Below are positions 1,430-54,208 of a stretch of DNA of 64,000 bases, piece by piece (the first letter of the stretch is position 1; each line of letters opens with the position of its first letter). Origin of the DNA: Micractinium sp. NFX-FRZ (lineage: Eukaryota; Chlorophyta; Trebouxiophyceae; Chlorellales; Chlorellaceae); contig JAPTJF010000360.1 in the NCBI GenBank assembly GCA_029339195.1, positions 1 through 64,000 of the forward strand. Direction: 5' to 3'. The notes beneath the pieces were generated by a model, which searched no databases, was not told the DNA's origin, and saw only the letters and a program-made list of their open reading frames with translations. Position numbers and translations under genes: made by a program.

Positions 1430-4400
1430 CTACTTGTCCTTGTTCTCCTTGTCCTTCACCTCTGCGTCCTGCACGTTCTCGCCGGTGCCGGAGCCGCCGG
1501 AGCCGCTGCTGCCGGCCAGGCTCTCCCCAATCTTCATCACCACCTGCTGCAGCGCTGTCGTCTTGGCCTTGATCTCCTGTACAAGGGAAGTAATGGAGGG
1601 AGAGGGCTATGTTTGGGGAAAAGTGGAAGGCAGCAGCGTGTACGCACGCCAGCAGGGGCGAAGCGCAGCGCCGGCAGGAGGGCACAGCAGACGGCCGACC
1701 CAACCCGGATCCAGCCACCCGTACCAGCCTGAACCCACCCACCTATGCGTTCTCGGACTCACGTCAAGCCCGATTCAGCCCCACAACCGCCTAAGCACCC
1801 ATTCAACCAACCAACATATTCATACCAGCACAAATAAACAAAAAATTGCACCCACCTCTGCGTTCTCCGACTCCATCACGCCCCGCACGTCGGCAATGGC
1901 TGCGTTGATGCTGTCCACCACGTTGGCGGGCAGGCGGTCCTTGTACTCGCTCACGCTCTTCTCGGCTGCACAATCCAAGCAGGCAGCGGGGGCAGGCAGA
2001 GGTGAGAACCAGAGGGACGCACGGGGGCAAAAGGACAGGCAGCTAGTTTACTCGCCCACGCTCTTCTTGCTTGCAGGAAGAGGTAGTAGGGCGGCAACAA
2101 CAGCATCAACACGCCACCTGGAAGCCCTGCCAACGCCCCTGCCAACGCGATGTCCTGGTCAAACCACACCACCCCACTGGCGCCCAGCCCACCCAGCCGA
2201 ATTGATGAGGGAGTCGGGCTATAGCCGCTGGCCTGTCCATGCCAACCCGCCCCACCCGCCTCGCACATGTAATAATAATTAACTATCATCAAATGTGAGA
2301 CACATACCCGAGTAGATGAGGGAGTCGGCCTCGTTCCTGGCCTCTATCGCCGCCTTGCGCTCAGAGTCCTTGGCCGCGTACCTGCCACAGCATGGGGGGT
2401 GAGAGAAAGGTAGCAGAAGGTGAGACCACAAGTTGATGAGGATGAAGTGCTTGTGGGGCCCTCTGTGCGGGTGTTCTTGGACAAGTGCCTACCAGGGAGG
2501 GGGTGAGGGAGCGGTGATAAGGGCGGGGGGGAGCAGGGCAGAGCAGGGCAGAGCAGGGCAGCAATCGGCTTGCACATTGCAAGCAAGCGTGCGTTGCAGG
2601 GCGCACGGCGAGACCAGAAAGGTGGAATGACAACAAGCTGACTCCGTACATCTGCGTGGCTTGCCCCTGGCGCCCGCTGTTTTACACCCCTCTGTTTGCA
2701 ACCTCAACCCTCCAACGTCATGCCAGCTCAAGCACGCCAGCTCCGCCAGCGCACTCACCGCTCTGCATCGCTGACCATGGACTGGATCTGCTGCTCACTC
2801 AGGCCGCCTGACGACTGGATGGTGATGGACTGCTGCTTGCCGGTGGACTGCGGGCGGGGGGGCGGGGGACCGAGGGGCGCGGGCAGGCTGGCCGGTGAGG
2901 GCACGGCAGGGTAGGAAACGGTGCGCGCCGAAGCGCGAGGTAGGGAGGCAGCCACGCCCTTCACCCTCTTTGCCTGGGCACACAGACGCGATGCCACTCG
3001 CTGCTTCACTGTCCAAGGTCGCCTCTCCACGCCAACCCCCACCCCAGGCCACCATGCGGCCTGCTGCTCTTGGCGTGCGTGTGTGCAGCGTGCCATCTGC
3101 ATCCCTGCCCACTGCCGCCTCTCCACTTCCCCCCCGCACCTTGTCCCTCCCCACAACCATTATGTAAAGCCTGCCCTCTCCCACCTTGTCCTTGGCGTGC
3201 ACGTGCACAATGCCGTTTGCGTCGATGTCAAAGGTCACCTCGATCTGGGGCACGCCGCGCGGGGCGGGCGGGATGCCCACCAGGTCAAACTGCCCCAGCA
3301 TGTTGTTGTCGGCCGCCATCTCGCGCTCGCCCTGGAACACCTTGATGCCCACCTGCAGTGGGGAAACAATGAGAGGGAAGAACGAATCACAAGAGTGAGT
3401 GAAGGTCTGGCAGTTATCTCGCGCTCGCCCCGGAAAGGGGGGCAAAGCTGCACCTGGGCCGAGCTGTCTGCTGCTATGCCCAAGCCTGCCCCCACTATAC
3501 CCACCCACACACACGCAGCCAGAAGACCACCGGCACAGCACACTGACCTGCGTCTGGCTGTCTGCTGCTGTGGAGAAGACCTGAGACTTCTTGGTGGGGA
3601 TGGTGGTGTTGCGGGAGATGAGCTTGGTCATCACTCCGCCCAGCGTCTCAATGCCCAGGCTGCGGGGTGGGTGGGTGGCAGGGGAGCGAGGATGGGGATG
3701 GGTGGGTGGTGGGATGGGGGAGTGTGACGGGCGGGGTGCAGTTATGGGAGATACTGTAACACAGTCAGGCAGGGGGCCCACCGTAGCATGCACTCGGGAG
3801 GTGCGGCACCTGGCAGCCACATGCCCCGACCAACCTAGCCTCCCACCCAACCACCTCTGTGTTTGCATCGTAGTCTCACCTGAGGGGGGTGACGTCCAGC
3901 AGCAGGATGTCCTTGACGTCACCACGCAGCACGCCGCCCTGGATGGCGGCGCCCATGGCCACCACCTGGGGTGGAGGGCAGGGTGGGGGCAACAGATGCA
4001 TGGTGAGATGGTGGTGAGAGGAGGGGAGTTGTGGAGGGCGTGAGGAGAGCAGTGCTGCAGCCACTGAATCTGGGCCTTGAGGGCCCCCCGCCTGGGCCCT
4101 TCAAAGATGTCCGCACAACCCAACTGACATTTGGCCCAAAGGTTACACACATGCATTAGTGCACACCCACGGAGCAACTCCCAGAAAGGCCTGTCCTCTT
4201 CCACATTCACATTGTGGCACGCCATCCTGTGATTAGACCACCCCTGCACATCCTGGCCGCTCACCTCGTCGGGGTTCATGGACCGGTTGGGCTCCTTCTT
4301 GAAGATGTCACGCACCATCTCGTTCACCTGGTGGGTTGAGCGCAGGAAAGGGAGGGATGTGCAGGAATTTGCAGGGTCACGGGCAGGCGGGTCAGGGGCA

Positions 4401-51620: not shown

Positions 51621-54208
51621 ATGCGGCGAGCAGCCCTCACAGCGCTTGGGTTTGCGCGCCAGGCTGGTGCCGGTCGTGTGCGATGCGTAGAAGGCGATGC
51701 ATGTGTAGCAGGCAGCAGCAGCCGCGCGGCCTGGCTACAACCCGCAGCAGTTGCCGCCGCCGCCACCGGCGGCAGCGGTGGCAGCGCAGTGGCAGCGCCA
51801 CTCCTGCCAGCAGCGCACTGTCTGCTACCTACCCGCAGCATCAGCGACACCTGCCGGCCGCAGCACAATGCGCAGCCAGCGGCGCAGCAGCAGCAGCAGC
51901 AGCAGGGGCAGCCGCAGCAGCGGCGGTATGAGCGCACGTGCTGGCAGTGTGGCACCGTGCTGGCGCAGGCAGATTACTTTTTCTGTCCAGAGTGCCATTC
52001 GGTGCAGCCCGCCAGCGAGGACCCACAGTACTTTGAAGTGTTCGACATGTGAGGGGGTGCTGAGGTGGCGACCTGTGCGGTGGCTGGCGTAGCAGTGGCG
52101 GGCGGTTGGGTGCGATGGGCAGCTGCACAGTGCCGCTACACACCTCCCAGGCAGCTTGAGTTCCCCTCCTCATCTGCTGCCGCAGCCACCGCCAGCACCA
52201 TTGGCACCCATCTCTCTGTCCCATTCATCGCTCCTACTCTTCCATGCACCCTACCACACCTGCAGAGGCGAGCCGCGCTTTGACCTGGAGCTACCGCAGC
52301 TGGAGCAGCAATACAAGGCGCTGCAGCGGCGCCTGCACCCCGACAAATACTCCACTGCCTCGCCACTGGAGCAGGAGTATGCGCACCAGCAGGTGCGTGG
52401 GTGGGGGCGGGGGAGGGCAGGGTTTTGAGGGTGGGTGGTTGTGCAGGGGTGCATCCTGACAAGTATTCCACAGCCTCCCCACTGAAGCAGGAGTATGCGC
52501 ACCAGCACGGGGGGCTGGCTCTTCCGCCACATGGTTCCATCAGTGCATGTTGTTGGTGTTGGTGAAGCCTCGGGGCAGGTGGTGGGTGACTGCCTGTGCT
52601 GGTGCATGGTTGCATGGTTGCGTGTTCCAGGAGGTGGGTGAGTGGGTGGGGATAGGGGAGCGGCAGAAGTACATGTATGGAGGGGTGCATCCGACAAGTA
52701 CTCCACCCCTGAGCCATGCATGACCAGGTACAACCAGCAGGTGGGAGTGTGGGATGATGGGATGAGGGTCAAGAAGGAGGGCACAAGCAAGGGCCGCGTT
52801 GGTCATGTTAAGCATGTGCTGCTCTGACCGCTCAGACATTCCTTCTTCCCGCTGCTGCCGTCTGACTGGAGCCCAATTTGGCTGCTCGCCCACTTTGCGA
52901 CAAGCAGCAGCTGTCAACCTGGCGTACCATGGGATGACTTGCTGCCAATGCGCACATCTTCCTCAACATTTTGCCTACTGCAGGCAGCGGTGATCAACCA
53001 AGCATACGATGTGCTGAAGAAGCCGCTGCGCCGAGCACACTACATTGTGCGCTGCCTGCCGGCCTGCTCGCCTCCCTGCCTGCCTATCGACTGCATATCC
53101 GCTGCCAGCCCTGCCTGCTCAGCGGCCCTGCCGTTGCCGCTGCTGCTGCTGCCACTGCCAGGTTCAGGCCAGTTCAGGCAGAGATGCAGAATGGGCTGTG
53201 AGAGTGATGCCGTCTGCGCCCATCCTCCTGCATCTTCGCCACCCACCGCCTGTTGTATGTCCCCTGTCCCTCATGTCTGCAGCTCAATCATGCAGGGTTT
53301 GGTGCGTGCGAGGGCATGACCATCACTGACCCTGAGGTGGGCGGGTTGGCATTGACTGGATGTTTTGGTGGGTGGGTGGGTGGGTGGCTTCGCAAGGCCG
53401 TGGGAGGTGGGTGGGTGGCTGTGTGAGTGGGAGAGGAGGCTTGTGGGTGAAAACCTAGCTGCCAGAGGCGGCGCACCGCTCCGTTCCGTGCCACACGGAT
53501 GGAGAGCTCCCGCCCTGGCATCTGTTACACTGCTCCTGCAGGCACACCACCCCCAGTTTCCTGGGTAGCTACTGATGCCGGCGATGCGATGTCGTGCCGG
53601 CTGCCATGTTGTTTCTCAACGTCTCAGCTCTGCCCCTCACCACCTCCCACCCTGCAGCTGCTGATGTATGTGATGGAGGCGCGGGAGGAGGTGGAGGGCA
53701 CAGATGACCCGGAGCAGCTGCGGGCGTTGCTGGAGCAGAATGCGGCGCTGGAGGGGAAGTGCATTCAGGTGTGGGGAGGGCAGGCATGCGGTCGGGGTAT
53801 GCTGGGGTCGGGAGGTTGAGTTTACGGCCGACTGGAACGAAATGCGGCATTGGAGTAGCAGTGGGCTGCACCCTAGAAGGCCGCTGCACTACACCCTCGA
53901 CAAATCTTTGCATCCGCTGCTGTAGATGCCGGGGAGGGGCGGGGCGGGGAGGATGTGCCAGGCAGTGGGCATGGGAGGGTTGGCAGGTGCAGCGTATGTT
54001 GGCACCCCTCCCCATGCAGTGTTCAACCGCACGCATAAGCGGCTGCCGCAGCCCCTGATATCGACATCCTGTTGGTGACTACCCATTCCCTTGCCTGCAG
54101 GGCCTGGTGGCAGCATTTGATGCGGGGGACCTACAGCATGCGGCTGAGCTGACCACGCAGCTGCGCTACATTTGCCGCATCAAGGAGGCGATCATTGAGA
54201 AGCTGTGA
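51621..54208 (+). CDS. HSCB: mitochondrial Fe-S co-chaperone HscB/Jac1 with zinc ribbon
   Basis: J-protein that brings the ISCU scaffold to mitochondrial HSP70 for Fe-S cluster release. Exons 51621-52048, 52266-52392, 52984-53046, 53283-53336, 53658-53768 and 54101-54208 give 296 residues. A long Arg/Ala-rich presequence with poly-Gln precedes an N-terminal zinc ribbon, CWQC (107-110) and CPEC (122-125), as in human HSCB. The J-domain has LQRRLHPDKYS with HPD at 167-169 and INQAYDVLKKPLRRAHYI. The helical C-terminal domain (LLMYVMEAREEVEG, GLVAAFDAGDLQHAAELTTQLRYI) contacts ISCU. The intron after exon 2 contains two decayed copies of the HPD region. The partner chaperone is the mtHSP70 encoded at 1430-9865. 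Confidence 0.93.
52320..52718 (+). repeat. pseudo-exon copies of the HscB HPD region
   Basis: The true exon encodes HPDKYSTASPLEQEYAHQQ and ends at 52392. The intron holds gcatcctgacaagtattcca...caggagtatgcgcaccagcac at about 52450-52507. A shorter copy, gcatccgacaagtactccac, lies near 52687. The first copy keeps most codons but has lost the His of HPD. Confidence 0.88.

Follow-up and report, generated by a model that had tools for sequence, protein, structure and literature searches.

Why do introns of a green alga contain decayed copies of the exon edges that adjoin them? The question is raised by the first 64,000 nucleotides of a contig of Micractinium sp. NFX-FRZ (JAPTJF010000360.1, our C360:1-64000; this whole stretch is referred to as the window), where a sequence-only reading had described, in several genes, tandem copies of exon edges lying with their splice sites inside the neighboring introns. 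The genome comprises 66 Mb in 838 contigs, from which we sampled 304 kb, consisting of the window and 24 stretches of 10 kb, each from another contig. Genes were predicted ab initio with a semi-Markov model of our own, which took the HSP70 reading frames as its seed, was trained on those 304 kb and returned 66 genes, 591 exons and 525 introns, with the splice consensus CAG/GTGAG at donors and TGCAG/G at acceptors.

When every intron was aligned with the 60-bp edges of its own exons and with exon edges from other genes, it emerged that, at p<.01, 58 of the 525 introns resembled their own donor edge and 53 of the 525 their own acceptor edge, with about 5 expected in each case. Counting either side, 100 of 525 introns showed such resemblance, comprising 27 of 114 in the window (about 2 expected) and 73 of 411 elsewhere. 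The contrast between own and other exons proposed in the sequence-only reading was thus found, since the controls stayed at about 1-2% at the same threshold: other edges of the same gene gave 1.25% and 1.05% of 6298 comparisons, the reverse complement gave 8 and 4 of 525 introns, and the wrong side or the next intron gave 5-8 of 462. These clean controls indicate that the copies are of the intron's own edge, on its own side and on its own strand. A count of 40-bp windows recurring in the adjoining 200 bp of intron placed the signal precisely, with recurrence of 14.8% for exon ends and 13.0% for exon starts and just 1.7% and 0.7%, respectively, for the next 40 bp of exon inward. Recurrence was 7.3% for the first and 4.7% for the last 40 bp of introns, 13.1% for intron interiors, 7.0% for intergenic windows and 3.4% for exon windows inside the same exon. 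What recurs is the exon edge itself, same side and same strand.

For a strict set, edges of up to 150 bp were used at p<.006, and intron 51275-51850, one of the 27 positive introns of the window, was dropped because of low complexity and a wrong gene model. This set holds 98 events in 84 of 524 introns, of which 92 reach to within 12 bp of the junction, and it is spread over 33 of the 63 intron-bearing genes and 21 of the 25 sequences. About one intron in six in the sample therefore carries a decaying copy of the neighboring exon edge together with its splice site, outside the window as well as inside it, and the central observation of the sequence-only reading proves to be general.

The anatomy of the copies, taken from the 92 events that reach the junction, is consistent with tandem duplication in many cases. 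Spacing between edge and copy (the lag) ranged from 67 to 404 bp, with a 5th-95th percentile range of 83-237, a median of 114 and 56 of 92 events at 80-140 bp, which corrects the 40-115 bases described earlier; an ungapped search (81 junctions, lags 27-294) added two junctions with lags of 27 and 47. The copied exon part had a median length of 44.5 bp and a maximum of 145 bp, and it started a median of 72.5 bp from the junction (69 at donors, 73 at acceptors). At least two copies were present at 20 junctions, most of them stepping by about one unit (for example 102/215/328, 108/216 and 115/232) and some without a constant step (94/158 and 178/287/334). Of the 78 events that allowed a test, 31 were also alike in the intron half of the unit (p<=.05); among the 31 in which the exon part was at least 85% identical, 18 were. 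In some young cases the match ran through the whole unit (L032:6091, L014:7008 and L027:6206). Many events thus appear tandem, from unit-step arrays and from the part of the set with like intron halves, but not every event shows this. Introns with copies exceeded the others in length by the greater part of a unit (median 328 versus 245 bp in the strict set; 340 versus 243.5 bp, p = 2.6e-12, by the ungapped set), in keeping with the suggestion that the process lengthens introns. The further suggestion that it duplicates exons is so far unsupported; the copied piece is an edge and not an exon with both ends. Within one HSP70 intron, a 56-bp unit occurs twice at 98% identity (window 8536-8647) and overlaps a decayed edge copy (8626-8655), perhaps as a second-generation duplication.

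We consider it probable that these copies stem from tandem duplications across exon-intron junctions that are rendered near-neutral by splicing, with a filter acting on those with short units or long exon parts. The tandem unit would start inside the exon and end inside the adjoining intron, giving a product in the order exon, site, intron piece, exon piece, site, intron. With the exon-proximal site still spliced, the protein would be unchanged, the second copy would be intronic and the intron would have gained one unit. The intronic copy would then decay, splice site included, and purifying selection on the exon arm would keep the pair visible for longer than a wholly intronic duplication. 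Duplications that let the copy site win, those with short units or long exon parts, would probably be removed by selection.

Comparison with related proteins bears on which site is used. The predicted HSP70, NMNAT and dNK proteins were each aligned with four relatives, and all 13 junctions with ungapped copies in these genes were gap-free on both sides. Because these 13 junctions match the proteins of relatives without a gap, the exon-proximal site is the conserved one. Four more introns in these genes have gapped evidence only (p<.01), and two of them were gap-free as well. The 13 gap-free junctions are in line with the earlier proposal, in which a duplication is tolerated on account of one copy being spliced out; the exon-proximal site would then also be the one chosen at the RNA level.

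Several observations weigh against tandem duplication with splicing out of the copy. The other two introns with gapped evidence were less clean, one showing a gap relative to one of four relatives and the other, 18016-18367, having an exon end that the relatives do not support. Among the 58 events with 80-140 bp spacing, in which the exon part had a median identity of 0.83, the intron half was recognizable in 25 and unlike in 33, and a neutral simulation with indel rates of 0.1-0.8 per substitution predicted a recognizable intron half in 0.89-0.94 of events. Events with an unlike intron half would, under tandem duplication, share the origin of the others. Clear cases of this kind are in HscB, a putative family assignment that we take from the sequence-only reading and from the translation, where the exon part is 51/58 identical and the intron halves are 25% alike, which is chance level, and in dNK intron 16755-17185, where the exon part is 0.96 identical and the intron half gave p.37. 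We had considered HscB as support for duplication of a whole unit and dropped it, since exon part plus distance equals the lag by construction and the intron halves are unlike; this unlikeness makes tandem duplication slightly less likely and a junction-tied process slightly more so. In addition, when two intronic copies were compared with each other, the exon-derived half was 0.76 identical and the intron-derived half 0.65, relative to a baseline of 0.58 (28 pairs, p = 7e-4). Ascertainment may suffice for this excess or explain part of it, both copies having been chosen for exon likeness; alternative causes are the copying of short blocks, a conversion process that renews the exon-derived half, or slippage where intron ends are rich in G or C.

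The strongest rival is a process tied to the junction itself, such as chromatin, breakage coupled to transcription or splicing, or RNA-templated repair, that copies a short block with the exon edge into the intron close by at a higher rate than is seen elsewhere, or else a conversion-like renewal of the exon-derived part of old copies. We regard it as possible but rather doubtful. It would account for the bounded exon part, for a spacing mostly of 80-140 bp where duplications internal to introns are mostly of 20-60 bp, for the unlike intron halves of HscB and dNK despite exon parts of 88-96% identity and of 33 of the 58 events overall, and for an intron at L025 4968-5363 (lag 199), in which the match extends over 23 bp of intron at an identity of 0.96 before it ends. 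Arrays with a constant step, however, are a product of tandem duplication, and a filter acting on ordinary duplications can give the same shape. In a bolder form, which we hold to be unlikely, junctions would be copying hot spots at which the edge block and its splice site are written about 100 bp into the intron, the exon-derived part being renewed or shielded as the remainder decays, and introns growing outward from their edges.

The frequency of border events relative to internal ones speaks to both forms. We counted 62 intron-internal duplications, 34 of them of 20-60 bp, and in the ungapped set 58 of 81 border duplications were at 80-140 bp and 2 below 60 bp. Simulated detection times were about 1.4 times longer for border pairs than for internal ones, and at borders 55 events combined an exon part of 15-50 bp with a spacing of 80-140 bp, compared to about 5.6 predicted from the internal ones, a further difficulty for ordinary tandem duplication and a roughly tenfold border excess in favor of a junction-tied process. 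We do not claim this tenfold enrichment, as simulation of the same kind predicts 89-94% recognizable intron halves and 25 of 58 were seen; this discrepancy suggests that introns decay faster than simulated, in which case internal duplications would be undercounted. When the count was restricted to events with recognizable intron halves, borders (exon part <=50 bp) and intron interiors had 11 each, where hand arithmetic gives a border expectation of about 4 for exon parts <=50 bp and about 7 for any exon part; the difference between 11 and about 4 has a binomial p of.009 with a hand-made share of.246, and applies to exon parts <=50 bp only. There is thus no clear case for exon edges as hot spots, although they may be such. 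The earlier expectation that ordinary repeats would not straddle exon borders so consistently finds some support in the 11 border events relative to about 4-7 expected, but straddling is often expected anyway, with introns of about 260 bp and units of about 115 bp, and exon-edge copies stay recognizable longer.

Classes of duplication that are rare point to the filter that tandem duplication would be subject to. Exon parts >50 bp were found in 16 of 59 events, compared to 31.9 for uniform breakpoints, and parts >60 bp in 8 of 59, compared to 24.8. Ungapped units of 20-60 bp numbered 2, where about 12.6 were expected. These deficits could be explained if selection removes duplications in which the copy site would win the competition: a long exon part brings more exonic context with it, and a short unit on the acceptor side would lack a branch point of its own. 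Here too a point counts on the other side, as the lack of short units may be partly an artefact of the gene finder, with close duplicates read as exon. We rejected a hard 50-bp limit on the exon part: 4 of 63 ungapped events exceed it, but with gaps and longer edges 16 of 59 do, the maximum over the 92 events being 145 bp. The exon part in HscB is about 59 bp.

It is very unlikely that a role as alternative or decoy splice sites maintains the copies. Among copies with lags of at least 60, 37 of 57 on the donor side had GT and 31 of 48 on the acceptor side had AG, and 29 of the 57 donor and 26 of the 48 acceptor copies scored above the 10th percentile of real sites, as function would allow. GT was kept in 11 of 14 copies with a recognizable intron half and in 11 of 21 without one (rank p>.15 for the intron half), and AG in 15 of 17 and 7 of 19, respectively. 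The dinucleotides thus fade with age, and no retention beyond that of neighboring bases was seen. Spacing was not enriched for multiples of 3 (30 of 81 junctions in the ungapped set), and splicing at the nearest copy site would preserve the frame and meet no stop in 10 of 81 cases and cause a frameshift or stop in 71 of 81. Differences amounted to 17, 20 and 22% at the three codon positions, a third-position excess that is only slight. Alternative splice-site creation, which the sequence-only reading had also envisaged, is so far unsupported by these figures.

Still less probable is that the copies are left over from the birth of introns, whether through introner insertion or through tandem duplication of an exon segment containing AGGT. 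Tandem duplication with splice motifs is, in the available excerpts of two papers, a recognized route of intron gain (PMC3443670, PMC4974935). As we interpret that model, however, the end of the upstream exon should recur immediately ahead of the acceptor and the start of the downstream exon immediately behind the donor, and here the median distance between the start of the copied part and its own junction is 69 bp on the donor side and 73 bp on the acceptor side. No introner-like intron family was seen among the 525 sampled introns: short stretches are shared by 74 pairs of introns from different genes (E<1e-4), and none of the 74 aligns over 60% of both introns. One contig, L016, has two introns of different predicted genes (379-559 and 3814-3964) with 47 identical bases in common. 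Finally, an artefact of assembly, gene models or composition is hardly credible, for although the models are ab initio, two are locally wrong and chance pairs do occur (7 exon-edge pairs at far lags versus 126 at near lags), a median exon-part identity of 0.83 in events with 80-140 bp spacing is not that of collapsed or doubled reads, the other-edge, reverse-complement and wrong-side controls are at about 1-2%, and 13 of 13 junctions are gap-free relative to relatives.

Exon-edge copies in the window, by predicted gene and intron (window positions; lag in bp)
Gene	Intron	Copy	Position	Strand	Lag	Remark
HSP70	5305-5797	donor-side copy 1 of exon end	5704..5746	-	94	43 bp
HSP70	5305-5797	donor-side copy 2	5603..5623	-	195	
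HSP70	5305-5797	donor-side copy 3	5519..5540	-	279	
HSP70	4328-4790	donor-side copy 1	4686..4726	-	105	
HSP70	4328-4790	donor-side copy 2	4572..4604	-	219	
HSP70	4930-5233	donor-side copy	5164..5181	-	70	
HSP70	3353-3547	donor-side copy	3454..3478	-	94	
HSP70	6991-7310	acceptor-side copy of exon start	7052..7090	-		gapped alignment
HSP70	8468-9054	acceptor-side copy	8626..8655	-	188	overlaps 56-bp x2 98% repeat
HSP70	1966-2307	acceptor-side copy	2033..2070	-	105	
HSP70	1966-2307	donor-side copy	2197..2220	-	111	
HSP70	1577-1855	donor-side copy	1743..1760	-	113	
NMNAT	12433-12745	acceptor-side copy	12659..12694	+	87	
NMNAT	12899-13256	donor-side copy 1	12954..12992	+	94	
NMNAT	12899-13256	donor-side copy 2	13014..13056	+	158	
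dNK	19293-19728	acceptor-side copy	19340..19375	-	83	
dNK	16755-17185	acceptor-side copy 1	16813..16860	-	106	exon part 0.96 over 48 bp, intron half unlike
dNK	16755-17185	acceptor-side copy 2	16931..16977	-	223	
dNK	15975-16293	acceptor-side copy	16059..16089	-	115	
dNK	15554-15848	donor-side copy	15737..15772	-	112	
small gene, 25.8-26.7 kb	26282-26621	donor-side copy	26349..26387	+	106	
LEA-like (putative)	32964-33293	donor-side copy 1	33188..33208	-	106	
LEA-like (putative)	32964-33293	donor-side copy 2	33088..33124	-	206	
LEA-like (putative)	30319-30581	acceptor-side copy	30398..30435	-	117	
LEA-like (putative)	27764-28372	donor-side copy 1	28271..28305	-	102	
LEA-like (putative)	27764-28372	donor-side copy 2	28158..28191	-	215	
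LEA-like (putative)	27764-28372	donor-side copy 3	28045..28078	-	328	
HscB (putative)	52393-52983	donor-side copy of exon end	52450..52507	+	116	51/58 identical, GT lost, intron half unlike

Most of the 18 sites named in the sequence-only reading are among these copies; 14 hold at p<.01, two are ambiguous or weak and two fail. In HSP70 the sites at 3.4, 4.6, 5.2, 5.6 and 7.1 kb were recovered and that at 6.2 kb was not (donor p.075), and both NMNAT sites, at 12.7 and 12.9 kb, were found. The dNK sites at 16.0, 16.8 and 19.3 kb hold, and the one at 18.3 is ambiguous (p.002, with a predicted exon end unsupported by relatives). For the LEA-like gene, the sites at 28, 30.4 and 33.2 kb hold and the one at 29.7 is weak, having an ungapped pair and a gapped p of.19. 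The HscB copy at 52.4 kb, with 51/58 bases at lag 116, gave p.0024, the minimum attainable with 411 comparisons; the site at 49 kb in the gene with a helicase-associated (HA) domain has p values of.33 and.17 and falls away. Sites beyond those named lie at 1.74, 2.07/2.20 and 8.66 kb (HSP70), 15.74 kb (dNK) and 26.39 kb.

Proteins predicted in the window are nearest to those of Chlorellaceae close to Micractinium. The mitochondrial HSP70 is 93% identical to that of M. tetrahymenae and 91% to that of Micractinium sp. CCAP 211/92, and NMNAT is 84% identical to its M. tetrahymenae counterpart; in that species dNK, HSP70 and NMNAT have consecutive locus tags (ABPG75_004438 to 004440). Pfam confirms HSP70 and dNK, the cytidylyltransferase-like domain in NMNAT, and the helicase-associated domain. 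Two gene models are locally faulty, at the exon end at 18.0-18.4 kb (intron 18016-18367) and at the 5' end of the HA gene, whose wrong 5' part overlaps and hides the HscB-like gene at 51901-54208 (+). The LEA-like genes, presumably of that family as first named in the sequence-only reading, include two tandem paralogs at 36545-42472 with 33-bp coding repeats, in which exon 6 measures 165 bp versus 297 bp. We considered the paralogs at 36.5 and 39.9 kb for polarizing events and set them aside, as their introns align over stretches of 11-38 bp only. The contig begins with a 27-bp minisatellite of 31.6 copies (window 2-855), and the last predicted gene has a 45-bp tandem repeat in its coding part, at 63209-63330.

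Should roughly one intron in six bear such a recognizable copy, edge duplication would lengthen introns in this GC-rich alga steadily and in a way that can be counted. It would also provide a natural experiment in splice-site choice, bearing on how the cell picks between two similar sites. Extrapolated from 0.3 Mb to 66 Mb, the genome would hold very many competing sites about 100 nt apart, the losers having little exon context, and the missing duplications, those with short units or long exon parts, may report the exon context that the spliceosome needs.

Comparison of these copies with known systems, as described in the available excerpts of the papers cited, suggests both kinship and difference. 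Tandem duplication is an established source of introns (PMC3443670, PMC4974935), and internal gene duplications are common, some with entire introns (Gao & Lynch 2009 as cited in PMC4974935, PMC3443670). The duplications of Gao & Lynch 2009 are likewise tandem, within a gene and inclusive of exon and intron sequence, whereas here the duplication takes in just the edge and lengthens an intron already present, although boundary cases may occur among theirs. Our search of the open literature found no account of frequent edge duplication with the protein unchanged; Gao & Lynch 2009, which lay outside that search, may touch on it. Introners, families of highly similar introns across genes (PMC9860276), are distinct from edge copies. 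In ATP2A1 (Hellsten 2011, cited in PMC3443670, PMC4974935), a tandem duplication likewise supplies extra splice sites and one copy is spliced out, but there a new intron arose from exonic sequence, whereas here none arises and the copied edge lies on its own side. In the RdRp gene of potato, the duplicated piece also extends across an intron-exon boundary and includes the 3' site; that copy is in use, giving a new intron and inserted exonic sequence, in contrast to the conserved exon-proximal site found here (PMC4974935). Near intron pairs in Drosophila, attributed to sliding or tandem duplication, similarly involve local duplication, competing sites and fading traces, but there shifts or gains produced 25 novel intron positions in 31 genes (PMC2891723), whereas in Micractinium the positions stay and the introns lengthen.

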